Virus record (IMG/VR): IMGVR_UViG_3300042465_001472
Location: 1 to 31,270 of that record
Direction: 5' to 3' (one strand)
Length of the DNA: 31,270 nucleotides
Origin: a virus
The notes beneath the pieces were generated by a model. The model saw only the letters and a list, made by a program, of their open reading frames with translations, was not told the origin of the DNA and did no database searches. Shown here one piece after another: positions 3,027 through 31,013 of this stretch (within the stretch, counting starts at the first letter, position 1; every line of letters starts with the position of its first letter). Position numbers and translations under genes: made by a program.

Positions 3027-3272
3027 ATGGCTATTGAACTCGCAGACGTTGACATTCAAGGCTTTAAAAGCGTTGATAAGCAAGAGTTTTACGCTTACGT
3101 CAATGGGTATGAAGGAGACATGCGGCGAGAAGTCATGCAGATGGTTGATCCACCTTGCTCAATCTATTACGACTTATCAAAAGGCAAGTTTCCAGAGCGT
3201 GTGATGGCTAAATGCTTTTACAACTACGAAACTAAATCTTTTGACGGCTTTAAAATTCGAGAGGTTGCGTAA
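3027..3272 (+). CDS. Hypothetical small phage protein
   Basis: This encodes 81 residues starting MAIELADVDIQGFKSVDKQ. The ATG at 3027 is preferred over the TTG at 3021 because GGAGG at 3015-3019 sits seven bases upstream. The protein is soluble-looking and mixed alpha/beta, with several aromatic residues (EFYAYVNGYEG, KCFYNYETKSFDGFKI). Its stop codon overlaps the ATG of the next gene (TAATG), which is strong evidence for translational coupling to the 1299-residue structural protein. A chaperone or adaptor role for that protein is plausible but not shown. The family is not recognised. Confidence 0.6.
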   Translation: MAIELADVDIQGFKSVDKQEFYAYVNGYEGDMRREVMQMVDPPCSIYYDLSKGKFPERVMAKCFYNYETKSFDGFKIREVA

Positions 3273-13163: not shown

Positions 13164-13276
13164 GTTAGCCTGAAGCCTGCCAAATAAGGCAAACTACAAA
13201 CACTTTGACTTCGGCAACTGCCAAAGACAACTATCAGCCTGCAAGTCAGGCGACAACTCTGAAAAGGAAAAATATC

Positions 13277-15426: not shown

Positions 15427-15450
15427 GGTTTAAATTTCTTGAGCCTAAAC

Positions 15451-18400
15451 ATGACAGACCTCTTAAAAATTCTGGTTGACACTGGTGACAGTTCTCGTCA
15501 AGTTGACAGGCTTACTCAGTCATATGAGAGGCTGGATAATGCTACAGCAAGCTTTGCCGCAAAAGCACCTTCAGCATTGAAGCAAGTCCAAGAGGCTATG
15601 AAGCGGACAGGGGAGTCCGATCAATTTAGTGCTTCTCTAGATAACGCATTAACAAGCTTGAGCAACGGAACAGCTAAGGCTGTAAAACTTGTTAAGGACC
15701 AGAATGCAGCCTTGCAGGGGTTGTACGAGGCTAGGTTGGCTACGGCTGGCAGGCTTTCAAACGCTGAACTAAACTTGTGGAAGAACCACGGGGCAAACCT
15801 TGGAAAGTTGCAGTCGGCTCAGTTAAAAGGCTTTGAGGTTGGCCTGTTGCTAGACAAGGTTTCGGCCTTGTCTAGAGTGGAGGCAGGGGTTTATAGCTCT
15901 GCTGAGAAGCTAAAGAAGGCTGTTTCTGCATATGACGCAGCTTACGCAGGTCTGTACAGCGGTTCAGCTAAAGAGTCACCCCTGCGCAGCATCCGAGTAG
16001 CTACAGCAGAAGATGCAGCAGTCATTGCAGCAGAGATGCGTAAGTTCTATACGCAGATGTCTGCTAACGCTGATGTAATGTCAAGACTCGGAGTCCTGGC
16101 TAAAGACAAGTCACCCCTGCGCAGCATCCGAGTAGCTACAGCAGAAGATGCAGCAGTCATTGCAGCAGAGATGCGTAAGTTCTATACGCAGATGCAGAGT
16201 TCTGCGGAAGTCTGGGCTAAATCTGGGATGCTGGCAAAAGACAACTCCCCTCTGCGCAGTATTCGGGTAGCCACAGAAGCAGACTCCGCTGCGATTTTGC
16301 AGACAATGCAGAAGTTTTATGCAGATCAACAACGCATACTCAACAATATAGCCATTACAAAAGCAACTACGTCACCGCTTGCTTCCATTAGAAAGCCTAC
16401 AGAGTCAGACAGTAAAGATGTACTAGCGGGTATGCGTGAGTACTACCTTGGGCAAGGAGCAAAGTCAAAGTACGGGCAAACGTCTTTTGATGCTACAGAA
16501 AAAGAGACAACAAAACTCACCACCGCCAACAAAGCCCTCAGCGGAAGCTTTAAGCAACTCGCCGTTGACGGCAATGATGTTCACTCAATGGCGCGAGGCT
16601 TGGCGTCTGGTTTTGGTGCTTTGTGGTTGACTTGGGGTAACCTTGTTCCTTTGTTTATCGGTGCTGGAATTTCAAACGGTTTTATGCAGACGGCAAAGTC
16701 AGGTATGGCTGTTGCTCACACAATGGAGATTATTGCTCAGGTTGGTGGAAACACCAAACAAGAGATGGTTGGCCTTAATGCTGAACTGGATAGGTTGTCA
16801 AAGTCAGGTCCGTTTGGGCCTCAGCAGATTGCGGATGCAATGAAAACACTGTCTTTAGCAGGTCTGAAGGCTAACGAGATTTTGTCAGTTACTAATGATG
16901 TACTTAACTTTTCTATTGCTGGCACTACTAGCATCGAAACTGCGGCAGCAACCTTGATGACTGTTTCTACAGCCTTTGGCATGGGTTCAGCCGGTTTTGC
17001 TAGAGTTGGCGATGTCATTTCTAAAGCTGCTGCTGAGTCTATGACAAGTGTTGAAAACTTCAGCAGCGCCATGAAAACTGCATCGGTTATCAACGCACAG
17101 TACGGTGTGTCTTTGGAGGATACAGCTACGGCTATTGCTGCAATGTCTCAGTTGGGTATCGAAGGTACAGCAGCAGGTACAGCCTTGCGCAACATGTACG
17201 CCGACCTCTCTGGCAGGTCAACACAGGTTGCAAAGGTTTTGCGTAGTCAAGGTATTGAGATGCGAGACGCCGTTACCGGAGGCTTTAAGCCTATGGTTGA
17301 GGTTGTAGCAGAACTTAACACGAAGTTTCAGTCCTTAAGTGGTATAGGTCAGAAAAACCTGATGCAAGCTCTGCTGTCTGAGAGGGGTGCTAAAGGTATT
17401 ATCGAGATGTTGCGCCTTATTAACAGTGAGGCTAAAGACGCAGGCTCTGGAATGGCTAACGCACTTGTAGAGATGCGTTCAAAGATCGCTGATTCTGCTG
17501 GTTTTGCAGCTATCACTTCTGCAAAACTTGGACAGACGGTAGAGTCTCAGTTTAAAGCTGTGCAGGCTACGCTACAGTCAAGTATGAACGCAGCATACAG
17601 GGAGATGGAACCGACTCTTGCTCTTATAGCAAGAGACCTCAGAGCTGCTTTTGCTTCTGAAGAGTTTAAGTCCGGCCTTAGCTCGATGGTGTCACTTACT
17701 GCTGAGTTTGTGAGAGTGCTAGTAGAAAACTCTAGAGTACTTGCAACTTTGGCTATTGGGTATGCAGGTTTGAAACTTGCTCAGATGGGTGTACTCGCTG
17801 TAACAGGAACAGTCGCAGCGCTTACTCGTGCAAAAACTGCCGCAGTAGTGAGTGACACTGTGGCTCTAGAAGCAAACAGCGCTGCTCAGACTAGAAACAA
17901 CGCTACTAAAGCAGGAGCTTTAGTAGGGGTTGCTGGACTTGCAAGAGCCTTGCCGTATGTGGGTCAGGCTTTAGCGGTAGGCACTACCGCTTGGTTGCTG
18001 TGGGATACCTACATGGGTAACGCTAACAGGACTGCACAACAAGCAGACGACTTTTACAACAACAGTGTCGCTAAAAGCCTTAAGGACGAAGCAGACAAGC
18101 TTGAGGCTATAAACAAGCTTATGCGAGAAGGTTTGACTTTGAAAGAAGCTCAGGCTCGTCAACGTGGTCAGGAGATAAATGTAGACACGGCAAGGTCCAT
18201 AAAAGACGCTAAAGAAGTATATGCTGCAGCCCAAAAGGTTACAGCAAGCTTGCAACCAGCAGAGGGAGCTTCAAGGTTACTTGATCCAGTAGGTGAAGGT
18301 AGAAAAGCTGCTGCAAGAGTTGTGGCCATACAAAAAGAAGAAGAAGCTCGAAGGAAGTTGACTGAAGCTTCAAGAAAACACGCAGACGCTCAAATTGACA

Positions 18401-19680
18401 TTGAGGAGCAGGCTCTCAGGGTTTCGGAAAAGCGTAGAGAGCAGGACTCTATGGTTGATTTGGAGCTGAAGAGAGCCAGAGACAAGAACAAGTTTGGTAC
18501 TTTGAATTTTGAATTGGGTGAGCAAGGCTCTTCACGTACAGGCGCCCGTGCAACCCTAGACTCAATACTGAAACGCGAACAGGAGCAAGAGGCGGCTTTG
18601 GGGGCAACCGGCATCGCCACGACTGAGTTCGATAAGATCAACGTAGAGCTTGTGAAAAACCTGAAAGGTTTGGACGCAGAATACAAAAGTATTCTGAAAA
18701 ACTACCCTGAACTTGAATCTGGTAAGAAGGAACAGTTAGAGAAACAGAAAGAAGAGATTAAGAACTTAATCGAGAAGAACTCGAAGACTCAAATTGAACA
18801 GGCGCTAGCCAAGCAAGAGTACGAGTACACCATCAAGCGTATTGAAGCCAGCTACGCAGAAATCCAAGCGACTGACGAGCTTGCAAACGCTAGATTTAAG
18901 GCAGCTAAAGAGTCTGAACGCCAGATAGGTTTGGCTGATCGTAGGTTTGAGTTTGAGCAGTCAATCAAATACGAGCTACCGATGGTTCAGGCGGCGGAAA
19001 AGGCTAAGTATGATGTTCGTGCTAGTTACGCTGAGAAACTCAGACAACTTGAGCAAGAGTCAAATAAGCGTCTTGGAGAGATGCTTGAGGCCAACCCAAA
19101 TGCAAATATTCAACCGGAACTTGACTCCTTTAACCGAGCCAAAGAAGCTATGAACCAAGAGGCGATTGCTCAGGTTGCTAAAGCCTCTGCCAACACCTAC
19201 AAAACAGAGTGGGACAAGGTGACAGGCACCATTGCCAGTAACTTTGCCAGCAAACTCATGAGCGGAACCTTAGACTTGAAGGAGTTCATGCTTGAAACTT
19301 TTGCAAATATGGTATTGCAACCGCAGATAGCTATGGCAGCACAGCAGGGCATGGACTGGCTTATCAAAGCCGGGATAAGTGCTATGACAGGCATGCCGTC
19401 GTTTGAAGGTGGCGGCAGTACAGGTACTGGCCCTCGTTCCGGTGGATTAGACGGTAAGGGCGGTTACATGGCTATGGTTCACCCTAATGAGACTGTGATT
19501 GACCACACCAAGGGCGGCGGTTCACAAGGATCAAGTGCGCCTGTTTATATCACTATCAACAACACAGTCGGAGATGTGGCTACGAAGTCTATGCTTGATC
19601 AGGCTAATGCGGCTACAGTCAAGCAAATTCAGGCTGGTATGGCACGTTCTGCACGCTATAATGGCGCGATGGCGAGGTAA
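15451..19680 (+). CDS. Tail tape measure protein
   Basis: This encodes 1409 residues from the ATG at 15451; an in-frame TTG at 15439 is less likely, though neither start has a strong ribosome site. Residues 1-170 are coiled-coil helical. Residues ~175-345 contain four 42-45-residue repeats starting SPLRSIRVAT. Hydrophobic segments occur near residues 385-415 (ALWLTWGNLVPLFIGAGIS) and ~765-795. Residues ~420-660 hold the conserved tape-measure core (GPQQIADAMKTLSLAGLKAN, AMSQLGIEGTAAGTALRNMY, LMQALLSERGAKGIIEML). Long charged helices follow, then a Gly-rich C-terminus with MPSFEGGGSTG and YMAMVHPNETVIDH. At about 0.15 nm per residue the tail would be roughly 210 nm. Confidence 0.92.
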   Translation: MTDLLKILVDTGDSSRQVDRLTQSYERLDNATASFAAKAPSALKQVQEAMKRTGESDQFSASLDNALTSLSNGTAKAVKLVKDQNAALQGLYEARLATAGRLSNAELNLWKNHGANLGKLQSAQLKGFEVGLLLDKVSALSRVEAGVYSSAEKLKKAVSAYDAAYAGLYSGSAKESPLRSIRVATAEDAAVIAAEMRKFYTQMSANADVMSRLGVLAKDKSPLRSIRVATAEDAAVIAAEMRKFYTQMQSSAEVWAKSGMLAKDNSPLRSIRVATEADSAAILQTMQKFYADQQRILNNIAITKATTSPLASIRKPTESDSKDVLAGMREYYLGQGAKSKYGQTSFDATEKETTKLTTANKALSGSFKQLAVDGNDVHSMARGLASGFGALWLTWGNLVPLFIGAGISNGFMQTAKSGMAVAHTMEIIAQVGGNTKQEMVGLNAELDRLSKSGPFGPQQIADAMKTLSLAGLKANEILSVTNDVLNFSIAGTTSIETAAATLMTVSTAFGMGSAGFARVGDVISKAAAESMTSVENFSSAMKTASVINAQYGVSLEDTATAIAAMSQLGIEGTAAGTALRNMYADLSGRSTQVAKVLRSQGIEMRDAVTGGFKPMVEVVAELNTKFQSLSGIGQKNLMQALLSERGAKGIIEMLRLINSEAKDAGSGMANALVEMRSKIADSAGFAAITSAKLGQTVESQFKAVQATLQSSMNAAYREMEPTLALIARDLRAAFASEEFKSGLSSMVSLTAEFVRVLVENSRVLATLAIGYAGLKLAQMGVLAVTGTVAALTRAKTAAVVSDTVALEANSAAQTRNNATKAGALVGVAGLARALPYVGQALAVGTTAWLLWDTYMGNANRTAQQADDFYNNSVAKSLKDEADKLEAINKLMREGLTLKEAQARQRGQEINVDTARSIKDAKEVYAAAQKVTASLQPAEGASRLLDPVGEGRKAAARVVAIQKEEEARRKLTEASRKHADAQIDIEEQALRVSEKRREQDSMVDLELKRARDKNKFGTLNFELGEQGSSRTGARATLDSILKREQEQEAALGATGIATTEFDKINVELVKNLKGLDAEYKSILKNYPELESGKKEQLEKQKEEIKNLIEKNSKTQIEQALAKQEYEYTIKRIEASYAEIQATDELANARFKAAKESERQIGLADRRFEFEQSIKYELPMVQAAEKAKYDVRASYAEKLRQLEQESNKRLGEMLEANPNANIQPELDSFNRAKEAMNQEAIAQVAKASANTYKTEWDKVTGTIASNFASKLMSGTLDLKEFMLETFANMVLQPQIAMAAQQGMDWLIKAGISAMTGMPSFEGGGSTGTGPRSGGLDGKGGYMAMVHPNETVIDHTKGGGSQGSSAPVYITINNTVGDVATKSMLDQANAATVKQIQAGMARSARYNGAMAR
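15974..16500 (+). repeat. Tandem 135-base repeats in the tape measure gene
   Basis: An 86-base segment is identical at 15974-16059 and 16109-16194, a period of 135 bases (45 codons). A third, diverged copy begins at 16246 (135 bases on) and a fourth at 16372 (126 bases on). All are in frame. The exact identity of the first two copies indicates very recent duplication. Confidence 0.95.
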
Positions 19681-19683
19681 AAA

Positions 19684-20199
19684 ATGGCGAACATTGTGTG
19701 GCCTGACAGTCTATGTCCTCGGACGTTCTCTCTGCAACTTGTTGCAGATACGAGAACGTCCGTTTCTGTCTACGGTGGTAGCGAGATTGTTAACGACCTT
19801 GCAGACGATTTTTGGCGTGTTTCTATGGAAGTAGACAGCCGAAGTGGAGACACAGCAGCAGCATTGGAAGCGCTGGTCAACTACATCCAAGGTGGAATCC
19901 ACACAGTCGAATTCGGTCACTTTGTTAGACCGACACCAAGAGGCAATGCTGGAACACTGACTAGAGCTAGTACAGCAACTTACATTGATGCTGGTCTGCT
20001 GAAGTACGCAGTTGTTAACGAGCCTCGCTATCAAGATGGTGCACTCCTTGTGGAAAGCGCATCGACAAATTCGATGTTGTGGAGTACACAACTTGAAAAC
20101 TCAACTTGGTCTAAGACCTCAACGCCTCGTGGAATCGGAACTTTAACTACCTACGGGCTAGTGTGGGCATTGGACAACTTGACTATTACATATGAATAA
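19684..20199 (+). CDS. Distal tail protein, N-terminal part (apparently split gene)
   Basis: This encodes 171 residues starting four bases after the tape measure stop. Residues 1-90 align by eye with the intact neighbour at 24759 (MA-x-hydrophobic-x-WP, LEALVNYIQGG against LEAFVNSLRSG, FVRPTPRG against FKRPVIRG). Residues ~95-145 are the opening of a concanavalin-like virion module (TLTRASTATYIDAGLLKYAV, ALLVESASTN, NSTWSKTS). Such modules normally continue with ...VAPDG.TA, but here the sequence changes to an unrelated ~24-residue tail ending WALDNLTITYE. The missing continuation is found at 24034. The piece could be a stable truncated subunit, a pseudogene fragment, or one half of a split protein. 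Confidence 0.65.
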   Translation: MANIVWPDSLCPRTFSLQLVADTRTSVSVYGGSEIVNDLADDFWRVSMEVDSRSGDTAAALEALVNYIQGGIHTVEFGHFVRPTPRGNAGTLTRASTATYIDAGLLKYAVVNEPRYQDGALLVESASTNSMLWSTQLENSTWSKTSTPRGIGTLTTYGLVWALDNLTITYE

Positions 20200-20208
20200 G
20201 GATTAACT

Positions 20209-22467
20209 ATGCCTCTAAAATTTGGCGGTACAACACCGACAGCACAGCAAAAAGCGGATGTAGTCACAGAGTTGGGGTTAGATGTAAAGTTGGAGCTAGG
20301 TCAGGCTCAACCAGCAGCAACAGCTAACAGCTTGTTGTTTTTTAACAGCAGCAAAGTGGTGACCTCAGGGTCTGCGCTGACATTTGATGGGACAACGCTT
20401 ACCGCAAACGCCCTGACGGTTACAAACGCCACCATAATCAACTCTGGCACAGCCAATGGCGTGGCCTACCTCAACGGCTCCAAAGTGGTGACCTCAGGGT
20501 CTGCGCTGACATTTGATGGGACAACGCTTGAAGTTCCGACTGGTAATGTCGCCGTTGGACGCGCAGTATCAGGTCAGTATTTAGTCGTGTATAACGGCGA
20601 CAGCACAAACCAACAACAAATTCAGCTAAAGATGGATGGAACGAATGGCGTTATTGATGCCCTTCGTTTTTCTGGTACGCAGCCAAATATGCTGTTCAGA
20701 ATTGACAGCTCCGAACAAATGCGCCTGACCAGCACAGGTCTGGGTATTGGGACGAGTTCGCCAGCAACAAAGCTGCATGTCTACGCTGGCAATAGCAGCT
20801 CCGCTGATTTCACCGCCATAAGAATGGCCAATGGCGGGGAGAACGGCACAAACCTTGATTTTTACAATGCCTTTGGCCCATTAGCGCAAATCAAGGGAAC
20901 CAAACTTGCCGGAGGATCAAGCTCGGACGAGGGCGTCCTAACTTTTTCGACAGCAACAGGCTCGGTGTTGTCGGAAAAAATGCGTATTACCGATACCGGC
21001 AGCGTGGGGATTGGGACGAGTTCGCCAGCAACAAAGTTGCATGTCTACGGTACTTCAAACATTCCAGTTCGTATTGAAACAAACACCGCCGATACAAAGA
21101 TTGAGATTCTGACAACTTCAGGCACTCAATTTATTCAGGGTAGTGCCAACAACTTGCTATTTGGCACTAACAACACCGAACGCGCCCGTATCGACACCAG
21201 CGGCAACTTCGGCATCGGAACAAGCTCCCCATTCGCAAAGCTGCACGTTGTTGGCGAGGCAGCTCTACCCACACTCGGCACAGCGTCTGGGGGGCTTTTT
21301 CTTTCATCTGCAAGCGGTACTTACGGTCTGTTTGGTGGCGTTTCTGGAGCCACTGGAGCCACTTGGCTGCAAGCTATGCGCAGGGATTCGGCAGCTGCCT
21401 ACGACATAGTTTTGAACCCTGTTGGTGGCAACCTCGGTATTGGGACGAGTTCGCCTGACTACAAACTTGATGTAGACGCTGGTGGTAGCGCTGGAGCAAT
21501 CGTTGATCTTGCTCGATTCTTTGGTAACGCAAGTGAAACTGCCGAAGCGCGATTTGTCTTTGGTACAACCGCAAACGAAATCAATGCAGCAATTGGGGCG
21601 CAAACCTCAACCGCAACGGACGGTGTGTTGAAGTTCTACACCAAAGGCTCGGGAACATTAGCCGTACGCATGCGCCTCGACTCCTCCGGCAACCTAGGCT
21701 TGGGGGTTACCCCTAGTGCTTGGGCACGCCCTGCATTTCAGCTGGTGAATGGCTCACTGAGTTCTTTGCAGGGCCCCTACGGACAAGTTAACCTCACAAG
21801 CAATGCTTATGCGTCTGGTAGTGCTGATATTGGTTATACAACATGGCGATACGTTTGGGGCGCTACTGGAGATTTAGGCGCTGCTGCGCGGTACTCAATG
21901 ACTGGGGCTAACCATTTATGGTACACAGCTGCTAATGGACTTGCAGGTAACGCCATCAGCTTTACTCAGGCAATGACGCTGGATGCTAGTGGGAATTTGT
22001 TGGTGGGGACTACAAATTTATTTGGAGCGAATACAAACGGTTTTGTGTATCAACCAGCTAACGGCTATGCGTGGTTTCACCATTCAACATCAATGAGTTC
22101 TGGGCAAGGTTATGCAGTATTTACTTATAACGGCACAAGCATTGGCTCCATTACCCAAGCAGGTACGACAGGCGTTCTTTACGGCGTTACCTCCGACCAA
22201 CGCCTGAAAGAGAATATTGTTGATGCTCCTGAGTTTGGTAGTGTCATTGATTCCATTAAAGTTAGAAGCTACGATTGGATAGCAGATCAGACACACCAAC
22301 GTGCTGGCTTTATTGCTCAAGAACTGTTGACAGCAGCTCCTGAAGCTGTGCATCAACCCGCTGACCCTGATGACATGATGGCAGTGGACTACTCCAAACT
22401 TGTGCCTATGCTGGTCAAGGAAATCCAAGCCCTCCGTCAACGCCTTGCAGCATTGGAGGCTGCATGA
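20209..22467 (+). CDS. Tail fibre with C-terminal S74 intramolecular chaperone
   Basis: This encodes 752 residues from an ATG with AAGGA upstream. The N-terminus (MPLKFGGTTPTAQQKADVV) probably attaches to the tail. The shaft contains repeats of SKVVTSGSALTFDGTTL and of GIGTSSPATKLHVY, common in fibres of this class. The C-terminal ~95 residues are a peptidase_S74 domain: TSDQRLKENIVDAPEFG, then YDWIADQTHQRAGFIAQEL and a coiled-coil end LVKEIQALRQRLAALEAA. In this family the chaperone trimerises the shaft and then cuts itself off at the Ser of the SDxRLK motif, here Ser662. It should be a host-receptor-binding fibre. Its last bases overlap the next start (ATGA). Confidence 0.9.
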   Translation: MPLKFGGTTPTAQQKADVVTELGLDVKLELGQAQPAATANSLLFFNSSKVVTSGSALTFDGTTLTANALTVTNATIINSGTANGVAYLNGSKVVTSGSALTFDGTTLEVPTGNVAVGRAVSGQYLVVYNGDSTNQQQIQLKMDGTNGVIDALRFSGTQPNMLFRIDSSEQMRLTSTGLGIGTSSPATKLHVYAGNSSSADFTAIRMANGGENGTNLDFYNAFGPLAQIKGTKLAGGSSSDEGVLTFSTATGSVLSEKMRITDTGSVGIGTSSPATKLHVYGTSNIPVRIETNTADTKIEILTTSGTQFIQGSANNLLFGTNNTERARIDTSGNFGIGTSSPFAKLHVVGEAALPTLGTASGGLFLSSASGTYGLFGGVSGATGATWLQAMRRDSAAAYDIVLNPVGGNLGIGTSSPDYKLDVDAGGSAGAIVDLARFFGNASETAEARFVFGTTANEINAAIGAQTSTATDGVLKFYTKGSGTLAVRMRLDSSGNLGLGVTPSAWARPAFQLVNGSLSSLQGPYGQVNLTSNAYASGSADIGYTTWRYVWGATGDLGAAARYSMTGANHLWYTAANGLAGNAISFTQAMTLDASGNLLVGTTNLFGANTNGFVYQPANGYAWFHHSTSMSSGQGYAVFTYNGTSIGSITQAGTTGVLYGVTSDQRLKENIVDAPEFGSVIDSIKVRSYDWIADQTHQRAGFIAQELLTAAPEAVHQPADPDDMMAVDYSKLVPMLVKEIQALRQRLAALEAA
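20352..20529 (+). repeat. 49-base exact direct repeat in the fibre gene
   Basis: Positions 20352-20400 and 20481-20529 are identical (CAAAGTGGTGACC... to ...ACAACGCTT), 129 bases or 43 codons apart. Shorter near-identical stretches coding GIGTSSPATKLHVY occur near 20740 and 21005, with relatives near 21215 and 21435. All keep frame. Confidence 0.9.
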
Positions 22468-22718
22468 TCGAGCCCATCCTCACCCGCCTGAACAGCATTC
22501 CCGCTGGCGAGGTTGCACATTTCGCCGTTGGAACCCTCCTGTTTGCGGTGTTGTTGCCGTGGGCAGGGCCGCGCTACGCCGTGGCTGCTGTGGTGGTCAC
22601 TGGGTTTGCCAAAGAACTCTATGACGCCGCGAACAAACCCAAACACACCCCTGACGTTTGGGACGCTCTGGTCACTTCAGCCGGTGGCGCTTTGGGGTAT
22701 TTCTGCACGACTTACTAA
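22464..22718 (+). CDS. Small membrane protein, VanZ/DUF2279-like appearance
   Basis: This encodes 84 residues whose ATG overlaps the fibre stop (ATGA). Hydrophobic segments lie at about residues 18-33 (AHFAVGTLLFAVLLPW), 37-49 (YAVAAVVVTGF) and 68-80. The ordered residues His19, LL, Lys50-Glu51-x-x-Asp, Asp64 and Gly74-Gly75 recall the HF...KE..D...D....GG pattern of small VanZ/DUF2279-type membrane proteins. The function in phages is unknown; a role in lysis or exclusion is possible. Three lines of sequence here (22501-22680) count 36, 39 and 34 G+C per 60 bases by hand, about 60%, higher than sampled lines in the surrounding phage genes, which suggests recent transfer. Confidence 0.6.
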   Translation: MIEPILTRLNSIPAGEVAHFAVGTLLFAVLLPWAGPRYAVAAVVVTGFAKELYDAANKPKHTPDVWDALVTSAGGALGYFCTTY

Positions 22719-22727
22719 GGACTCAAT

Positions 22728-23426
22728 ATGCAATGGAACATCTCTCAAATAGATCAAGCTTACAAAGATGGTAAGTTTATGCCGTCCACCGTGCATTGGC
22801 TTTGCACCCACACTGAGGGCGAGTTCTCAGGGTCGGTTTACTCCACTGCGCAAGTTTCGGGATTGGCCGACCTGTCTCTGGATGCCGTGCTGGCGCACCT
22901 GTGGGCCAATGGCGTTGACAAAGATGCTACCGAGGCCGCTTGCAAAGCTCAGATTGCGAATCAGCGTATCAACTCCGGGGCAGTTCGCTTGAGTGGTGTT
23001 TTGTCTGTACCTGTTGCAACTGTACCTCTGGAACAGTCAAAACTTGCAGCCTTGACTCAGATAGACGAGCATCACGCCACAGTGGTCACAAAACTTGTAG
23101 GTAACCCTACACAAGCGGAAAAAGACACTTGGACCTTGAAGTTGGAAACTGCCACAGCTGTTAGCGCTGGAACTCCTATCAGTTTAGCAGGTCAAAGTTT
23201 TCTGTCTGCGGCAGGTATTGAGGGTACAGAGGCTCAGAAAACTTGGTCGAAATCTGTGATAGGCAAAGCAGCAGCTTATGCAGCTATCGTTGGTGTAGGT
23301 GAAAAGCTTCGAGCACATGCACGACAGACGATCAAAGCAGCCACCACGACTGAAGAGATTAGCGGGGCGCTGGAAGATTCAATTCTACAAACAGAAGCCG
23401 CTGTAAAAGCGTTTTTGCTACCATGA
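22728..23426 (+). CDS. Two-domain protein, fibre-assembly-like C-terminus
   Basis: This encodes 232 residues from an ATG with AAGGA upstream. Residues 1-~85 form one module (MQWNISQIDQAYKDGKF, FSGSVYSTAQVSGLADL, NGVDKDATEAACKAQIANQR) that resembles small phage proteins usually found alone. Residues ~100-232 are helical and contain QAEKDTWTLKLETATAV and EKLRAHARQTIKAA, reminiscent of DUF4376/tail-fibre-assembly proteins. The first part is GC-richer, while the second uses the CTTGCA/ACTTG style of the flanking genes, so the join near 22985 may be a recombination point. It lies directly after the fibre operon pair, where fibre chaperones are normally encoded. Confidence 0.6.
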   Translation: MQWNISQIDQAYKDGKFMPSTVHWLCTHTEGEFSGSVYSTAQVSGLADLSLDAVLAHLWANGVDKDATEAACKAQIANQRINSGAVRLSGVLSVPVATVPLEQSKLAALTQIDEHHATVVTKLVGNPTQAEKDTWTLKLETATAVSAGTPISLAGQSFLSAAGIEGTEAQKTWSKSVIGKAAAYAAIVGVGEKLRAHARQTIKAATTTEEISGALEDSILQTEAAVKAFLLP

Positions 23427-23782
23427 GCAGCTTTACTACTCCGGCAGACCTAAGAATGCTTGACAACTACCGGTTTGAGTTGTTGTCGCAGTTTGAGTAT
23501 CACATTGGTGATTACCCAAGCTCAAATGTGATACTTGTTCCTTCAGGGACAGTCACAGACTTGGCTAGCATCCCAAGATTACTTTGGACGATCTTTCCTC
23601 CACACGGGCGATGGGCTAAAGCCGCGATTATTCACGACTATCTGTATGCCAACGGCATAGGTACGAAAGAGTTTGCCGATAAGACATTCTTGGAGGCAAT
23701 GGAAGTGCTAGAAGTACCTAAGGTAAGTCGAATACTGATGTTTTGGGCTGTACGACTTTTCGGTCAGGGTGCTTACCCCTAA
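23423..23782 (+). CDS. DUF1353 family phage protein
   Basis: This encodes 119 residues; its ATG overlaps the upstream TGA (ATGA). The core TVTDLASIPRLLWTIFPPHG followed by WAKAAIIHDYLYANG is the DUF1353 signature, with conserved Asp, Pro, Arg, His and the HDYLY motif. Members are common beside phage tail fibre and lysis genes, but their biochemical role is not established. The C-terminus has a hydrophobic helix (SRILMFWAVRLFGQGAY). It belongs to the same co-directional group as the two preceding genes. Confidence 0.85.
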   Translation: MSSFTTPADLRMLDNYRFELLSQFEYHIGDYPSSNVILVPSGTVTDLASIPRLLWTIFPPHGRWAKAAIIHDYLYANGIGTKEFADKTFLEAMEVLEVPKVSRILMFWAVRLFGQGAYP

Positions 23783-23857
23783 AATTCAAAGCTGCCGCTG
23801 GCCTGCCTTGGGCAGTTAAGGCATAATAGCAGCACCACCAAACCTCCGGAGAAAATC

Positions 23858-24022
23858 ATGAATGAAAAAACCGTCAACCTCCCTTTGAGCCTGCTGAATA
23901 ACCTGCTTCAGTACTTAGGTACAAAACCTTACGCTGAAGTTTACCAACTTGTAGCCGCGATGCAGCAAGCTGTGACCCCTCAACTTCAAGAGCCAGAAGT
24001 TGAGGCCAGTAAAGAAGATTGA
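23858..24022 (+). CDS. 54-residue hypothetical protein
   Basis: A short ATG-initiated gene has CGGAGA at 23847-23852, five bases upstream. It encodes MNEKTVNLPLSLLNNLLQYL, then a helix with KPYAEVYQLVAAMQQAV, and an acidic end (EVEASKED). The amphipathic helices suggest a small helical, probably oligomeric protein. Many phages carry a similar tiny gene near fibre or lysis genes, with no known function. Upstream (23803-23815) is a small hairpin CTGCC/GGCAG, and CATAAT at 23822 could be a weak -10. Confidence 0.6.
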   Translation: MNEKTVNLPLSLLNNLLQYLGTKPYAEVYQLVAAMQQAVTPQLQEPEVEASKED

Positions 24023-24033
24023 AGAGTTTCTAA

Positions 24034-24759
24034 ATGCAGTTAGTAGCAAATAATAAAGTCGCACCTGACGGCGCACTGACTGCTGAAACTTTTTCAGGTT
24101 TGGCAGGAGAGTCTGCTGTTCTACAGCAGACTGTCACTATGCCAAGTTCTTCACAGGTCACGTTCAGTCTTTTTCTACGTAGCGATACGCCACAAAATGT
24201 AAGACTTAAGCTGGGTGTTCCCGGCGTTACTGAACGCTATGTTGATGTTACGACTCCAGCTACCTGGACCCGCTACAGTCTGACAACTTCAGATACTGCA
24301 ACTCAAAGAGTTGCAGGTATTACTGGTACAGCTGACACTAACACCTTCAGCGTAGACATTTGGGGTGCCCAACTTGAGTCTGGGAACTCTATGACGAGTT
24401 TTATACCTACTCAGGCCAGCATTGGAAACAGGGCCGCTGATATTGTGACTATGCTTACTACAGACTCTCCTAAAGGTTCTGCGACTATAAACGTTAGCAC
24501 AGTCTTAGGGCAAACTGTTAAGGCCGGTGACATGTTTGTAATCTCTGGACTTCTGCTGCAAGTTGCAGAAAGCGTGACAGCTACCGGAACTTCCACGACG
24601 GTGAAACTCGTCAACAGACTGAGAAAAGCCTTGACTGCTGGACTGCCGATTAACTCACACAGAACTAAGATCAAGTGGAGGCTGGAGTCAAGCAGTGCAG
24701 TCTCAAACCTTGTTGGGTATACTGGCCCTGTAAGTCTTAGCTTTACGGAGGATGTGTAA
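24034..24759 (+). CDS. Distal tail protein, C-terminal part (apparently split gene)
   Basis: This encodes 241 residues from an ATG preceded by GAAGAG; a stop codon lies directly upstream in frame. It opens in mid-module with LVANNKVAPDGALTAETFSG, the usual second part of a concanavalin-like virion module, and continues through DIWGAQLESGNSMTSFIPTQ, a typical module end. Residues ~140-241 (QTVKAGDMFVISGLLLQVAE, KALTAGLPINSHRTKIKWRL) align with the C-terminal half of the intact paralogue at 24759 (YLKAGDMLGVGDLLFQVALD, KAIASGLSVVVSEPTAKFRL). It therefore looks like the missing part of the gene at 19684-20199. It overlaps the next gene by one base (TAATG). Confidence 0.65.
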   Translation: MQLVANNKVAPDGALTAETFSGLAGESAVLQQTVTMPSSSQVTFSLFLRSDTPQNVRLKLGVPGVTERYVDVTTPATWTRYSLTTSDTATQRVAGITGTADTNTFSVDIWGAQLESGNSMTSFIPTQASIGNRAADIVTMLTTDSPKGSATINVSTVLGQTVKAGDMFVISGLLLQVAESVTATGTSTTVKLVNRLRKALTAGLPINSHRTKIKWRLESSSAVSNLVGYTGPVSLSFTEDV

Positions 24760-25346
24760 TGGCTGAACTAACTTGGCCCTCTGTAGCTGTACCTTCTAAG
24801 TTTACTTTGTCAAGGTACACAAAAGTTTTTCGCTCTATTTCAGCTTTTGGCAAGTCTGGTCAGAACATTGACATGCTTAATGATCGTTGGCAAATCTCGT
24901 GCGAGATTGGAATACGCAGTAAAGATGACAGTGCTGAACTTGAAGCATTTGTGAACAGTCTTCGGTCAGGAGTTGGCATTGTACGTTGCCATCACTTCAA
25001 GAGGCCGGTTATTCGAGGGGTGTTGACTAATCCGACTACAGCAGCAATTGCCAAAGGTGCTCAGGCTTTGACGATTAACTGCACAGCAGGCAACTACCTC
25101 AAAGCCGGTGACATGCTTGGAGTAGGAGACCTGCTGTTTCAGGTAGCCTTAGACTGCAGTACGACTACAAGTACCCTTTCAGTGCCTGTCACGATGCGAA
25201 GCCGAAAGGCCATTGCCTCAGGCTTGTCCGTAGTGGTAAGCGAGCCTACCGCAAAGTTTCGCCTTCGCAGCGAAGCTTCAACATCTTTTGGACCCGGTGG
25301 AGTTATAATGGGCACCACCTTAGAGTTTGTCGAGGTCATAAATTGA
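24759..25346 (+). CDS. Distal tail protein (intact paralogue)
   Basis: This encodes 195 residues. The N-terminal ~90 residues (MAELTWPSVAVPSKFTLSRY, SAELEAFVNSLRSGVGIVRC) match the start of the gene at 19684, and the rest (NYLKAGDMLGVGDLLFQVAL to the end) matches the gene at 24034. It lacks the concanavalin-like insert. The two-part beta architecture and position between tape measure and DUF2163/J-type genes suggest a distal tail or baseplate ring component. The exact Pfam family is uncertain. It ends overlapping the TTG start of the next gene. Confidence 0.7.
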   Translation: MAELTWPSVAVPSKFTLSRYTKVFRSISAFGKSGQNIDMLNDRWQISCEIGIRSKDDSAELEAFVNSLRSGVGIVRCHHFKRPVIRGVLTNPTTAAIAKGAQALTINCTAGNYLKAGDMLGVGDLLFQVALDCSTTTSTLSVPVTMRSRKAIASGLSVVVSEPTAKFRLRSEASTSFGPGGVIMGTTLEFVEVIN

Positions 25347-25915
25347 TACCACTGTCTACCGCAGCCACACAAGCTCTAGCAGCAAGTACTGTGAACGTCA
25401 CACAGTTGCTCTTGCTTGAGTTCCCTAGCGAAACCGTAGCACTGAACTCCAGTAACTTGGACTTGGAGTATGGGGGTATCACCTACAAGGGTGCTTACGG
25501 TATGGGTGGCATCAGTGAGATTCAAGACGCTCCGGGGGAGATTAAGGGAGTTCAGTTTGTGCTTAACGGAGGCTCTGCCGACTTGATAGCCTTAGCACTT
25601 GACGAATCCAAGCAGTGGCAGGGCACTCCTGTCACCATACGCACTGCTATTCTCAATGAGAATTACGAAATTGTTGACGCCCCGACTATCTGGATTGGTA
25701 AGGGTGATGTCATGTCTATCTCGGAAGATGAGGGTGCCACCACGATTCAGGCTACTGCGGAGAGCAGTGCAGTGGATTTCATGCGTGGAGACCCGCTTGT
25801 CTATAACGATGCTGATCAGCAAGTTCTTTATCCCGGAGATTTGGGGTTTAATCTAATTCTTTCACAAGTTGATAAGCAAGTTGTGTGGCCTGCAAGATCG
25901 TGGTATTACAAATGA
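25343..25915 (+). CDS. DUF2163-like tail hub-associated protein
   Basis: This encodes 190 residues with a TTG start in a TTGA overlap with the upstream stop; GAGGT at 25332-25336 supports it. Features are TVNVTQLLLLEFPSETVALN, the glycine turn YGGITYKGAYGMGGIS, APGEIKGVQFVLNGGSADLI, and GDPLVYNDADQQVLYPGDLG at the end. This fits the DUF2163/BR0599-type proteins found in the lambda L/gene-transfer-agent tail-tip position, where they link the distal tail ring to the hub. It overlaps the next gene (ATGA). Confidence 0.7.
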   Translation: MIPLSTAATQALAASTVNVTQLLLLEFPSETVALNSSNLDLEYGGITYKGAYGMGGISEIQDAPGEIKGVQFVLNGGSADLIALALDESKQWQGTPVTIRTAILNENYEIVDAPTIWIGKGDVMSISEDEGATTIQATAESSAVDFMRGDPLVYNDADQQVLYPGDLGFNLILSQVDKQVVWPARSWYYK

Positions 25916-26319
25916 CAACTAGAAAAATTGACTGGCAAATCGAATTTGCAAACTGTGTTAGCGCCAATATGAACAAAAAGTTTGTTTGGGGTGAGCATGA
26001 CTGCGTGTTGTGGGCATCAAACGCTGTTAAGGCTTTGACAGGTCACGACCCTGCCGAAAGTTTCAGGGGTTCCTATAACTCTGCTCTGGGTGCCGCACGG
26101 GTTCTGAAAGAGCATGGCGGTATGGAAGCAATTGTCACCAAGCAGCTAGAACGGGAGGCCGTATCTCCAGCATTTGCCAATGTTGGAGACGTAATGCTTG
26201 TTATGCAGGAAGGACAACCTATGCTTGCGGTCTGTAACGGAGAAACAGTGCTTGCACCCGGACTCAACTGTCTGGTTTCTTTACCCACGCTGTCTGCTGT
26301 TAAAGCTTGGAAGGTATGA
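25912..26319 (+). CDS. DUF6950/NlpC-P60-like tail-tip protein
   Basis: This encodes 135 residues from the ATG at 25912, which overlaps the previous stop; the in-frame GTG at 25885 is less likely. The segment WGEHDCVLWASNAVKALTGH with DPAESFRGSYNSALGAARVL is the signature of the DUF6950 family, which occupies the NlpC/P60 peptidase slot of lambda K. The Cys of HDC could be a papain-like nucleophile, and a later His/Asp partner is not obvious. Family members are thought to help the tail tip cross or process the cell wall, but activity is unproven. Confidence 0.75.
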   Translation: MTTRKIDWQIEFANCVSANMNKKFVWGEHDCVLWASNAVKALTGHDPAESFRGSYNSALGAARVLKEHGGMEAIVTKQLEREAVSPAFANVGDVMLVMQEGQPMLAVCNGETVLAPGLNCLVSLPTLSAVKAWKV

Positions 26320-26320
26320 T

Positions 26321-29300
26321 ATGCCACCAGTAATTGCCTATGCAGGCGCGTATCTGTTGATGTCTACGACAGCGGTAGCACTTGGGGCATTCCTACTCAC
26401 ATACGCTGCTGTTATTGGTTACGGCCTTCTGCTTGTTGCAACAAATGCTTACATGCAACGCGCTAAAAGAGCAGCGCGTGACAAGTATAACGCCTCTCAA
26501 GTTGACCGCTTGCAAAGCGTAGCCACAACGACTGGACCCAGAGAACTTGTTCTTGGTAAAGTACGTAAAGGTGGAACTGTAATCTTTAGGGATTCTTGCG
26601 GTACGCACAACGAAAAGTTTGTGATGGTTATTGCACTTGCCAGTCACAAGATTTCTGGTGTTGAGAAGTACTACTTAAACGAGAAAGAAGTCACGTTAGA
26701 TAGTAGTGGCTATGTTAAAGAAGCTCCATATGCGATACGGAGTACTACCAGTACTGAAACTTCTGAGGTTGTTCCGGGTTCCTGCTATAGCTACAGCACA
26801 GACGAGTCTGGAGCTAACCAGATAACAACCTGCCAGTACTATACATATACTAAAACTGCAAACATTCGCATTATTGACGGATCGCAGACCACGGCTGACG
26901 CTAGACTACAAGCTCTGTTTCCCGGCGTATGGACTGCCAACCATAAACTGTTGGGCGTGGCTTACGCTATTCTCGAACTTGACTATAACGAGTCTGCTTT
27001 CCCTAGCGGCATACCGACTTTTACGGCGTTGATCCGTGGGGCTGAAGTCTATGACCCTAGAACTAACACGACGGTGTTTTCAGAGAACCCTGCGCTACAT
27101 GCAAGGCATATCGTCACACACCCTCGGTTCGGAAAGCGTACAAGCTTGACCGCTAGAGAAACTGCCAGAATCGTTGCAGCGGCCAACGCCTGCGAGACTA
27201 GCTACACACCCTCTGGAGGCACAGCAACTCAGCTTTACAAGAGTGGCGTTGTTCTGCCTTACGGTGGACAGGCCGCAGACGCACTTGACGATATCTGCCA
27301 AGGTATGTGCGGGAAGTGGGCTTATGCCGGTGGCGAATTTTTTATAAAGGTTGGAGTCTACACGGCACCAGTTAAGACTCTTCAAGCGTCGGACTTGATG
27401 ACTTCGCAAAGGGATAGTCAAGGCGGATCAAACGGCAAGGCTATTTCTATCGCTACCCACAAGGCAAGGGCAGAGAAGTTTAATTCCGTCACTGCTAAAA
27501 TTTACGATGAAGCTGCACAGTACAAAGAGACAGCAATAGCACCTGTAAAAAATACAACGGCAATAACTAAAGACGGTCAAGAACTGCCACTTGAGATTAC
27601 TCTGCCTACGGTGTTCAGTGCTTCGCAGGCTCAAGTTGTTTGCAACTATATGCTGAAGGATGTGTTTGACCCTCTGTCGCTGACAGCAGGCTTCAAGCTT
27701 TCAGCTTACGAACTTGAACTTTTTGACAACGTTGCGCTGAACATTCCTCGCTACGGCTGGTCAAACAAGGTTTTTGAGGTGCTCTCTCGGAACTTCAGTC
27801 CCACAGGGGCTATTGAGTTGATCCTAAGAGAGACATCTGCGGAGTTGTTTAACCCCAACATCTACTCCAACTCTAACGGCTTTGCCAGTAACACCAACTT
27901 AGTAGAGCCTTGGGATATTGACCCTCCCGGAACGCTTACCATGAGCAGCGGTACGTCAGACTTGCTGATTCAGGGTGACGGTTCACTGATTACCCGAGTG
28001 CGTGTCCAGTGGACACCAATCCTTGACGAAAGAATCCGTCAAGGTGGTTACGTTGAACTTCGCTGGAAGGCTGTGACTGCCGAAACATGGTCTACGGTTA
28101 CTGTACCCGGTGTTGAAAGTTCTGCTTATCTGTTAGGCGCTACTGACGGCAGCACTATCGTTGTTATGGCTAGAACCCGTACCCAACTTGCAGTGTCCGA
28201 CTGGAATGTACAAAAGACACACCTCGTACTTGGTAAGAGTGAGCCTCCGGCAGCTGTGCAGAATTTGACTGTCACTGTCGAGTCAGAAAACTTGGTTCTT
28301 TCTTGGTCCAAAGTTTTTGACTTTGACTTGGCGGGTTATGAAGTTAGAACCTCAAACACCGGTTGGGGAACCCCCGGAGAGGTCTACAGGGGTCCAGCAA
28401 CGACTATTGGAGTAAGCCCCGTTGCGACTACTACAACTTGGTATGTAAAGTCGTTTGACCGTAGCAACAACTACTCAACATCCGCTGCTCAGGTAAGCTA
28501 CACTGTGGTTGCACCTGCTGCAGTCTCTAATGTTACTCACATATTTGCAGACACAAGTTTGACTGCAGCTACTGTAACACTTAGTTGGAAAGATGCCGTC
28601 ACGACTTTTGGCTACGACTATTACGAGGTTGCTTTTAACGGCACTGTTGTCACAGTGAAGGCTAACACTGTGACAGTTCCTGCTAACTGGATTGGAAACA
28701 GAAACTTCACCATTACCACTGTGGATCGCTTTGGTTTTAAATCCTCACCAATCGGCTACTCAATTACAAAACTTGTTCCTGCTTCTGCTATCAATTTTCG
28801 GTCTCAGGTGATCGATAACAACGTCCTGCTGTATTGGACACTACCTGCAAAAACTTCACTGCCTATTTCACACAGCCGACTTCGCAAGGGAGACACCTGG
28901 GCGTCAGCAGAAGAGATTGGAACAAAAGATGGAGAATTCACAACGGTTTTTGAACTATCTGGTGGTGAGTTTAAATACTGGATTGCTATTGTCGATACAG
29001 ACGGCTATGAGTCAGAACCTGTAAGCTTGACAGCATCTGTGTCACAGCCTCCTGACTTCTTGTTCTTGGCTGAGCAAAGCTCTACGTTTAGCGCGACAAA
29101 GGTGAATGCTAAGCAGGACTTGACTTCTCTCGTGCTGCCAGTAAACCTCACCGAAACTTTTGAAGGCCACTTCAACTCTAATGCTTGGGCAAGTCCTTCT
29201 GCACAGGTGTCTGCTGGATACCCTATCTACATTCAACCGGGTGTGACTTTGGGTTACTATGAGGAAATTTTTGACTTTGGTACAGTTGTTGCTAGTAGCA

Positions 29301-29968
29301 ATGTAACTATCACAACTGCTGGTACGGCAATTTCTGGCAATCCGTCTAAGGCTTTAACTGTTAGTCTGTCTGACGATCAAGTGGATTGGGCAACTTATAC
29401 TGAGTACACTTCAGTCTTTGCAACTAATTTTAGGTATGTGAAAGTTCGTTTTGCTGTTACTCAAGTTGCAGTTGGTGACCTCTACAAACTTGACCAACTC
29501 ACAGTAAAACTTGACACAAGAACTTTTACAGACAGTGGAACAGTTAACGCCTTAGCTTCAGATGTTAACGGTACACCTGTGAGCTTTAACTTTGAGTTCA
29601 TTGATGTCATGTCCATAAATACCACAGTCAACTCTATTGTACCTCGCACAGTGGTTTACGACTTCAGAGACGAAACTAAGACTGGAACTTACAGCATAGT
29701 CAGCAATGTGGCTACTCTGAGTTACACCACCCCGCATGGTTTACGGGTAGGGCAGGCCGTGCGGGTTACTCCAACTTCTGGTACACTGCCTTCAGGGGTT
29801 TACACGATTGCGTCTGTCGTAAGTGCTAACAGCTTTACTGTAAACGTAACGAATGCAAACACTTCTGGTGGTTGTGTTACATACCCAAACAGCTTTACTG
29901 TTTATGTCTACGATAGCACAGGAGCTAGGCAGACAAACACAGTTTCATGGAACGTAAGAGGCAGCTAA
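26321..29968 (+). CDS. Central tail-tip host-specificity protein, lambda J-like
   Basis: This encodes 1215 residues from the ATG at 26321, with GGAAGG about eight bases upstream; the frame open back to 26198 overlaps the previous gene. Two hydrophobic segments lie at about residues 5-45 (YLLMSTTAVALGAFLLTYAA, IGYGLLLVATN). The tail_3-like hub region follows (KISGVEKYYLNEKEVTLDSS, HKLLGVAYAILELDYNE, RIVAAANACETSYTPSGG). Fibronectin III-like domains occupy ~residues 640-905 (PPAAVQNLTVTVESENLVLS, WYVKSFDRSNNYS). A beta-rich C-terminus ends in Ig-like strands. J-type proteins form the tail tip trimer, contact the receptor and open the path for DNA. The fibre gene follows two bases later. Confidence 0.85.
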   Translation: MPPVIAYAGAYLLMSTTAVALGAFLLTYAAVIGYGLLLVATNAYMQRAKRAARDKYNASQVDRLQSVATTTGPRELVLGKVRKGGTVIFRDSCGTHNEKFVMVIALASHKISGVEKYYLNEKEVTLDSSGYVKEAPYAIRSTTSTETSEVVPGSCYSYSTDESGANQITTCQYYTYTKTANIRIIDGSQTTADARLQALFPGVWTANHKLLGVAYAILELDYNESAFPSGIPTFTALIRGAEVYDPRTNTTVFSENPALHARHIVTHPRFGKRTSLTARETARIVAAANACETSYTPSGGTATQLYKSGVVLPYGGQAADALDDICQGMCGKWAYAGGEFFIKVGVYTAPVKTLQASDLMTSQRDSQGGSNGKAISIATHKARAEKFNSVTAKIYDEAAQYKETAIAPVKNTTAITKDGQELPLEITLPTVFSASQAQVVCNYMLKDVFDPLSLTAGFKLSAYELELFDNVALNIPRYGWSNKVFEVLSRNFSPTGAIELILRETSAELFNPNIYSNSNGFASNTNLVEPWDIDPPGTLTMSSGTSDLLIQGDGSLITRVRVQWTPILDERIRQGGYVELRWKAVTAETWSTVTVPGVESSAYLLGATDGSTIVVMARTRTQLAVSDWNVQKTHLVLGKSEPPAAVQNLTVTVESENLVLSWSKVFDFDLAGYEVRTSNTGWGTPGEVYRGPATTIGVSPVATTTTWYVKSFDRSNNYSTSAAQVSYTVVAPAAVSNVTHIFADTSLTAATVTLSWKDAVTTFGYDYYEVAFNGTVVTVKANTVTVPANWIGNRNFTITTVDRFGFKSSPIGYSITKLVPASAINFRSQVIDNNVLLYWTLPAKTSLPISHSRLRKGDTWASAEEIGTKDGEFTTVFELSGGEFKYWIAIVDTDGYESEPVSLTASVSQPPDFLFLAEQSSTFSATKVNAKQDLTSLVLPVNLTETFEGHFNSNAWASPSAQVSAGYPIYIQPGVTLGYYEEIFDFGTVVASSNVTITTAGTAISGNPSKALTVSLSDDQVDWATYTEYTSVFATNFRYVKVRFAVTQVAVGDLYKLDQLTVKLDTRTFTDSGTVNALASDVNGTPVSFNFEFIDVMSINTTVNSIVPRTVVYDFRDETKTGTYSIVSNVATLSYTTPHGLRVGQAVRVTPTSGTLPSGVYTIASVVSANSFTVNVTNANTSGGCVTYPNSFTVYVYDSTGARQTNTVSWNVRGS

Positions 29969-29969
29969 T

Positions 29970-31013
29970 ATGGCTAATCACAATTTACCTGTAGTCACAA
30001 GTCTGTACGCAGACTACACGGCAGAGCTGAAAGCAAGGCATGACGATGCTTTGAAGATGCTCGACCCCGCAACGACATCACCTACAAACGTACCTACAAA
30101 CGCTATGCGTTTTAGCTCTGCTGCTGCTAAATGGCAAAAGTGGAACGGTACTGCTTGGGTTGACCCCGTGGTCAGCTATGCTATTAATATTACTGGTAAC
30201 GTGACTGGTAACGTGACTGGGAACGTGACAGGGAACTCCAGTACGGCTACTGCACTAGCGACTGCTAGAGGCATTGGTGGCGTTTCTTTTGATGGAACTA
30301 CAAACATAGACCTGCCGGGAGTGAATGTACTGGGTACTCAGCCCACAAGTGGGAATGCTGCTACTGCCACTAAGCTAAATTCACAAGGCGCTTACGCAGC
30401 CTCAGCTCCGGGCAATACACGAGGCGTTTCTGGCGTTAACTTTTATGAGGCTTACAACAATGGTTACCCCACACCTTATGGTAATGTATTGCACCTACGA
30501 GGTGGTGGGGCAACACAGTTGCTGCTTGGTTGGTCTAGTGGGGATGGCGCTAGCGCTGCCAACTACATCCGATCTAAGAGAGACAATGACTCAGGTTTGT
30601 GGTCGCCTTGGCAAAAACTGATTACTGATCAGGATATTGGTACTGCCAGTGTTGGCTATGCGAGCAGCGCAGGAAGCGCAAACACCGCAAACAGCGCAAG
30701 CTATGCGAGCAGCGCAGGAAGCGCAAACACCGCAAACAGCGCAAGCTATGCCACCAGCGCAGGCAGTGCGGTGACTGCGAATACTGTGAATTCCATCACA
30801 ACCGAACAAGTTCGATTCGCCACAGTGGATGTGTACTCGCAGGATATCGGGTCATACATCATGGCTTACCGGCCCCCCTCGGGCACAAGCATCGGTGAAC
30901 TGGTTGCAGGTAGTTCATTGCTGATCAAAGAGTACAGCTCTTTTTATGCATCTGGAACTTGGCGATGTTTATCCGCCATTAATTACGGTGGTCTCTATAT
31001 AAGAATTTCATAA
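29970..31013 (+). CDS. Tail fibre with short tandem repeats
   Basis: This encodes 347 residues. The N-terminal ~65 residues (SLYADYTAELKARHDDALKM, KWQKWNGTAWVDP) are a typical tail-attachment start for fibres encoded after J. A GNVTGNVTGNVTGN stretch is near residues 74-88, followed by the shaft phrase GGVSFDGTTNIDLPGVN and a knob-like domain with LRGGGATQLLLGWSSGDG and SPWQKLITDQD. Residues ~229-273 hold three 15-residue repeats (YASSAGSANTANSAS). The last ~70 residues form another small beta domain ending YGGLYIRIS. There is no S74 chaperone, so folding may need the product of the next gene. This is the probable side or central fibre. Confidence 0.8.
   Translation: MANHNLPVVTSLYADYTAELKARHDDALKMLDPATTSPTNVPTNAMRFSSAAAKWQKWNGTAWVDPVVSYAINITGNVTGNVTGNVTGNSSTATALATARGIGGVSFDGTTNIDLPGVNVLGTQPTSGNAATATKLNSQGAYAASAPGNTRGVSGVNFYEAYNNGYPTPYGNVLHLRGGGATQLLLGWSSGDGASAANYIRSKRDNDSGLWSPWQKLITDQDIGTASVGYASSAGSANTANSASYASSAGSANTANSASYATSAGSAVTANTVNSITTEQVRFATVDVYSQDIGSYIMAYRPPSGTSIGELVAGSSLLIKEYSSFYASGTWRCLSAINYGGLYIRIS
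30655..30789 (+). repeat. 45-base tandem repeats in the terminal fibre gene
   Basis: Units at 30655-30699 and 30700-30744 are identical, and the unit at 30745-30789 is diverged. Each encodes 15 residues rich in Ala, Ser and Asn. GC content is higher than in the surrounding gene. Confidence 0.9.

Follow-up and report, generated by a model that had tools for sequence, protein, structure and literature searches.

In the 31,270-base IMG/VR virus record IMGVR_UViG_3300042465_001472 (hereafter the window, meaning the whole stretch of DNA analysed), two open reading frames (ORFs), at 19684–20199 (171 amino acids) and 24034–24759 (241 amino acids), are by homology the two parts of a single distal-tail (Dit1) gene that has been opened at approximately 20121/24034. 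The record is linear, contains no N and comes from an uncultured bacterial virus, a siphovirus. Very probably, a 3.9-kb fibre-bearing cassette was inserted into a Dit1 that already carried a carbohydrate-binding module. Both Dit1 halves are open from end to end, free of frameshifts and internal stops.

As described in the initial annotation, the start of the left ORF resembles the Dit paralogue encoded at 24759 (Dit2; 38% over residues 1–98), and the ORF then enters a carbohydrate-binding module that breaks off after NSTWSKTS at base 20121. At the C-terminus of the left ORF, 25 residues (TPRG...ITYE) depart from the module. The right ORF begins MQLVANNKVAPDG, completes the module, and goes on as a Dit C-terminus (33% to the paralogue), again as described; it does start inside the module, but the cut lies close to the module's N-terminal edge and not, as had been supposed, in its middle. 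The paralogue itself has no sugar-binding module, which corrects the earlier comparison. Profile matches are divided between the two ORFs: NCBIfam NF048003 (GTA_spike_fiber carbohydrate-binding) matches residues 122–149 of the left ORF (profile positions 1–31, E 4e-4) and 3–135 of the right ORF (28–182, E 1e-17); among PHROG families, phrog_1302 (distal tail protein) matches left 4–95 (3–93, E 9e-9) and right 109–240 (62–199, E 6e-11), and phrog_5939 extends across left 80–147 (361–444) and right 5–223 (439–673).

The ancestral condition of the gene can be read from two relatives, L212 (76% identity) and L213 (67%), found in IMG/VR by scanning with the 430-amino-acid tail protein encoded at 13205. 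Between the head protease or capsid gene and the host specificity gene J, gene order is common to the window, L212, and L213. Both relatives encode an intact, single-ORF Dit1 of 197–198 amino acids right after the tape measure gene (L212, 16439–17032; L213, 12029–12625), followed by Dit2 and then by phrog_2048, DUF6950, and J. The left half and L212 Dit1 share 67% identity across residues 1–87, and the right half matches the C-terminal part of Dit1 over 97 residues (44% for L212; 47% for L213). Thus, one continuous homologue of both halves, the check proposed at the outset, exists in the intact Dit1 of L212 and L213, and gp58 of Rhodobacter phage RcapMu spans the joint. There is no sugar-binding module, S74 fibre, or DUF1353 gene anywhere in the L212 or L213 records. 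Because the module is absent from these orthologues, it is very probably itself an insertion in Dit1, at approximately residue 88, and the cassette a second insertion inside the module. The idea that an intact gene was opened and that a fibre cassette entered it is borne out by the orthologues, but that account lacked the nesting of the two insertions.

In evolved Dits, the N- and C-terminal regions align to classical Dit around a carbohydrate-binding module (CBM) (PMC10688798, PMC7291167). The same is found here: Dit family sequence is present over both halves, the two terminal regions together align along the full length of the classical Dit of the relatives, and the gene lies directly 3′ of the tape measure gene in the window, L212, L213, and L225–L227. 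The insert is a CBM by its match to NF048003 and by fold matches to CBM61, CBM4, and CBM16. The gene departs from evolved Dits in its reading frame, which stops at 20197–20199 and restarts at 24034; hence, we regard Dit1 as derived from an evolved Dit by splitting, rather than as a standard member.

The position of the joint can be defined to within one codon. Among 75 distinct natural modules in the fetched loci, the spacing from the conserved W to the [AS]PDG motif is 13 residues in 49 (the mode), and it is also 13 when the two ORFs are rejoined at S146 and M1. The alignment of RcapMu gp58 to the rejoined protein extends for approximately 220 residues and is ungapped at the joint. That such modules naturally run uninterrupted across this point, as stated in the initial annotation, is confirmed by gp58 and by the spacing survey. 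The restored spacing of 13, the gapless gp58 alignment, and the unmatched 25-residue tail together place the cassette at approximately 20122–24033, with no module residues lost (± one codon). The origin of the 25-residue tail was searched for and nothing convincing was found; the tail has no counterpart in the module family or in the orthologues. Bases 20119–20127 (TCAACGCCT) are identical to bases at the 3′ end of the cassette fibre gene, at 22437 (20119–20139 compared with 22437–22457); as we estimate the chance of such a nine-base match at a few percent, we take it as a lead only. Just past the left joint, in another frame, the DNA reads QRLVESEL-stop, which resembles the C-termini of S74 fibres and may mark a donor breakpoint.

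The cassette encodes the fibre, membrane, assembly-like, and DUF1353 proteins listed in the initial annotation, to which a 54-amino-acid ORF is to be added, and its extent is revised to 3.91 kb. The C-terminal part of the DUF7936 protein shows 48% identity to the product of a gene between the fibre and DUF1353 genes in the P2-like contig L012. Fibre and DUF7936 genes adjoin each other in most fetched viral loci, and the fibre–chaperone–DUF1353 arrangement recurs in L012. The block has the properties of a fibre–chaperone cassette, in that the fibre gene adjoins an assembly or chaperone gene elsewhere too and the site is empty in close relatives; fibre-plus-chaperone modules are known to be transferred between unrelated phages (PMC10579305). 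Searches of phages with the 54-amino-acid ORF gave no matches, and no recognised homing endonuclease, recombinase, or fibre-adaptor element is present among the cassette genes (Pfam, PHROG). The VanZ-like gene has a GC content (see the table) and a third-position GC content (0.68) well above those of its cassette neighbours, suggesting that the cassette itself may be composite.

A further gene, after J (29970–31013), encodes a protein whose N-terminus shows 57% identity over 72 amino acids to the post-J fibre of Curvibacter phage P26059A, which gives the window two distinct fibre-like proteins. As the window already has this fibre-like gene, in a place seen in relatives, the cassette S74 fibre is an additional one. 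In L213, too, J is followed by a fibre-like gene; the J of L212 is long, and no fibre gene was recognised after it.

Phylogenetic analysis places the Dit1 sequences of the three phages in one clade (99%) and the Dit2 sequences in another (90%), with both joined (96%). Since each clade holds all three phages, the duplication predates their divergence. Five more distant relatives (L223–L227) carry a single Dit, and the tandem pair (L212, 16439–17615; L213, 12029–13211) occurs in a small phage clade. For the module, a deep alignment proved too divergent for scanning, and a two-sequence alignment recovered the module at 73 viral and 36 genomic loci; none of these has Dit flanks around the module. 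Weak Dit-like C-terminal matches in L045, L154, L155, and L119 were set aside, as they belong to longer proteins (approximately 400 amino acids where complete) without a Dit N-terminus.

Structure prediction made use of alignment A6; alignment A5, which comprised the module and Dit C-terminal parts, was dropped because the WGAQLE motif was misaligned. For the right-hand module alone, AlphaFold predicts a jelly roll of ten strands (pLDDT 75, pTM 0.73), with CBM61, CBM4, CBM16, and a phage tail fibre among its PDB matches. The right-hand module is thus predicted to be a self-contained, complete jelly roll, with a putative role in sugar binding. The model of intact L212 Dit1 is of low confidence (pLDDT 57.6), and T5 pb9 is its second-ranked PDB match (probability 0.99, E 0.01, TM-score 0.37); by sequence, Dit1 has no credible match in the PDB. 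The module insertion point near residue 88 falls in a poorly predicted linker (residues 78–102) between two Dit regions of this low-confidence model, and no galectin match was found.

The history that we propose, which the comparison with relatives supports well, has three steps. A Dit gene was duplicated in tandem before the window phage split from its two nearest known relatives; Dit1 in the window lineage then became an evolved Dit, acquiring a carbohydrate-binding module of the GTA-spike-fibre kind between its N- and C-terminal regions; and the 3.9-kb fibre–chaperone cassette entered the N-terminal edge of that module, splitting the gene while all module residues were kept. The cassette may have arrived by illegitimate recombination from the fibre region of another phage, bringing with it the stop codon of the left half and the ATG of the right half. 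Intact Dit2 would maintain tail tip function. In known Dits the ring is formed by the N-terminal domains, and lambda gpM is described as a ring domain only (PMC7291167); the left half, which retains the whole N-terminal ring-type region, may serve as a ring-only Dit. If, however, the C-terminal strand of Dit1 completes the ring domain, the two halves would have to associate. The right half, if produced at all, would be made weakly and would comprise a self-contained sugar-binding module and a C-terminal domain. Overall, the phage would have gained a second S74 fibre together with helper genes of its own.

Several results weigh against this history or against continued use of the two halves. 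Both junctions are known from one assembled contig; when the left half, the right half, and J were each scanned singly against viral contigs, no close relative with the split arrangement was recovered, and the searches yielded no donor for the cassette as a whole. The composition of the cassette is mildly atypical, in the upper part of the range spanned by other blocks, its codon distance being reached by 12 of 140 blocks and its tetranucleotide rank being 16 of 137; because composition is not decisive, the argument for a foreign origin is drawn from the absence of the cassette from relatives. The ATG of the right half has no Shine–Dalgarno pairing above background (−2.4 kcal/mol, with a background median of −2.3, compared with −7.7 for the left half, −6.0 for the fibre gene, and −9.5 for Dit2), such that its translation would depend on coupling to the 54-amino-acid ORF 11 bases upstream. 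The earlier statement that each half has its own start is accordingly true of the ATG codons, but not of ribosome binding at the right half. Unique changes in the window and L212, with L213 as outgroup, number 8 and 5 in the N-terminal part and 12 and 15 in the C-terminal part; these counts do not indicate relaxed constraint on the split copy, in a comparison of low power by which retained function and recent insertion are indistinguishable.

The proposed history leaves several fates for the halves. It is quite possible that the left half alone, or the left and right halves separately, are in use. The history would be unchanged if Dit1 were a recently broken, dispensable duplicate without any remaining function, its halves being remnants while Dit2 does the work. 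We consider this a somewhat less likely fate: Dit1 is a tandem copy beside an intact Dit2, L223–L227 live with one Dit, and the right half is weakly initiated, yet Dit1 is intact in both two-Dit relatives and neither half shows a stop, a frameshift, or faster divergence. In that case, the locus would represent ordinary illegitimate recombination in a redundant structural gene.

The history would equally hold for a working split evolved Dit, in which both halves are translated and assemble together as one Dit1 ring subunit that may also anchor the new fibre. That both halves are produced and assemble is rather doubtful. Both are fully open, without frameshift or stop, their N- and C-terminal parts are conserved to the degree expected from an intact orthologue, and the right-hand module is predicted to be self-contained; against this, the right-half ATG has only background Shine–Dalgarno strength, an intact paralogue is present, relatives with a single Dit exist, and no fibre-adaptor element is recognised in the cassette. 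A fuller version of the suggestion made in the initial annotation, in which the two proteins join in the tail tip and the inserted fibre is mounted on that ring, is unlikely. If true, the fibre cassette would have landed where a duplicated Dit tolerates insertion and would have become domesticated there. Functional halves would constitute a natural split Dit, useful for mapping where Dit rings tolerate breaks.

Other explanations dispute the history itself. An assembly chimera, with the cassette of another phage joined by error, is improbable. The arrangement comes from a single metagenomic contig, the block is absent from relatives, and the GC content of the cassette is slightly higher; however, two wrong joins would be required at one codon of one gene, the record contains no N, neither junction shares an exact word longer than 11 bp with other parts of the window, and the genes on either side are naturally oriented and spaced. 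Two separate truncated Dit paralogues that never formed a single gene would be conceivable in a clade where tandem Dits do occur, but are highly improbable given that the ORFs partition one module without overlap or loss, and one Dit1 orthologous to that of L212 and L213. A self-splicing intron or similar element restoring a full-length product can be dismissed for practical purposes despite the residue-perfect insertion site, as 19500–24500 has no Rfam match up to E = 1, and thus no recognised self-splicing intron, and the cassette is packed with structural genes without a recognised homing endonuclease or recombinase.

The inserted cassette and its host gene can be set beside several known systems. 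Lactococcal skunavirus and other evolved Dits likewise have N- and C-terminal regions that match an intact classical Dit, and an insert that is a carbohydrate-binding jelly roll; those described in the cited papers are chiefly from phages of Gram-positive hosts (PMC10688798, PMC7291167). In contrast, the window module is of the GTA spike-fibre family and appears to lie between two regions of a pb9-like Dit instead of within a loop of a galectin domain, and the 3.9-kb cassette further splits the gene. T5 pb9 (PDB 5mf2) shares the place after the tape measure and the structural match given above, although there is no match at the sequence level and the window clade has two tandem Dits. The RcGTA head spike fibre (NF048003), which binds capsule (PMC10218006), and RcapMu gp58 belong to the same module family, continuous across the joint, but there the module is in a head spike or tail fibre, whereas in the window it is inserted in a Dit. 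Alteromonas phages A5 and V22 (PMC10579305) and contig L012 have a comparable block of a fibre and an assembly-like gene recurring in unrelated phages; in the window this block is inside a Dit gene between the tape measure gene and J, and adds to the post-J fibre-like gene (29970), whose position matches P26059A, CRP-831, and L213. LtfA/LtfB of DT57C and DT571/2 (PMC4728585) also form a tail adhesin from two ORFs rather than one; they are a two-protein fibre of tested function, whereas the window gene is a Dit divided by a cassette, of putative function.

Evolved Dits and mobile fibre–chaperone modules are thus already known, and the nested arrangement is new within the searches made here. With the intact orthologues as before-pictures, the locus would illustrate a stepwise route to new host-binding tail parts: duplicate a Dit, add a sugar module, and accept a fibre–chaperone block. 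A GTA-spike-fibre module in a pb9-like Dit, with a fibre cassette inside it, would extend the range of evolved Dits.

The tail genes of the window run in the order tape measure, left ORF, S74 fibre, VanZ-like, DUF7936, DUF1353, 54-amino-acid ORF, right ORF, Dit2, phrog_2048, DUF6950, and J.

Table. Features of the tail region of the window, with the matches by which they were assigned.
Feature	Position	Strand	Basis
Tape measure protein; directly 5′ of Dit1 (synteny anchor)	15439..19680	+	PHROG tape-measure families; equivalent place in L212/L213
Native portion of Dit1 left half: ring-type N-terminal region (residues 1 to ~91), then ~55 residues from the start of the inserted module region	19684..20121	+	L212 Dit1, phrog_1302, NF048003
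25-residue non-native tail of left ORF and stop; already cassette DNA	20122..20199	+	Unmatched in the module family and in the orthologues
Cassette: second tail fibre, bearing an intramolecular chaperone (Peptidase_S74)	20209..22467	+	PF13884, E 5e-11; PHROG tail fibre families
Cassette: small VanZ-like membrane protein (weak match)	22464..22718	+	PF04892, 21.4 bits (cut-off 30.1); GC 59.5%
Cassette: DUF7936 and fibre-assembly-like protein	22728..23426	+	PF25590, 26.4 bits (just under cut-off 27); C-terminal likeness to L012
Cassette: DUF1353 protein	23423..23782	+	PF07087, 95.5 bits; 73% identity to L012 DUF1353
Cassette: 54-amino-acid ORF (MNEKTVNLP...)	23858..24022	+	Strong Shine–Dalgarno (−6.6)
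Dit1 right half, module part: predicted carbohydrate-binding jelly roll	24034..24441	+	NF048003 28–182, 65 bits; AlphaFold; PDB fold matches
Dit1 right half, Dit C-terminal domain	24442..24756	+	L212 and L213 Dit1 (97 residues)
Dit2, intact tandem paralogue	24759..25346	+	phrog_1302 full length, E 1e-22; 47% to L212 Dit2; separate clade
phrog_2048 tail protein	25343..25915	+	PHROG; 63% to L212, 58% to L213
DUF6950 protein	25912..26319	+	PF22262, 131 bits
Tail tip/host specificity protein J (ORF as listed; true start probably downstream)	26198..29968	+	Phage-tail_3; PHROG tail families

Two further proteins of the window merit description. J (26198–29968) is a mosaic: residues from approximately 619 to 1255 show 43–45% identity to Curvibacter phage P26059A and to IMG/VR contigs L003 and L004, whose J N-terminal halves do not match that of the window; the latter follows L212 and L213 and Roseobacter and Pelagibacter phages. 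A 1299-amino-acid protein encoded 5′ of the head protease gene (3272–7171) has no PHROG match and no match in L212 or L213; it carries SAYTAPANSDIAAIKxKTDTL repeats near its C-terminus and is possibly a head-associated fibre or spike.

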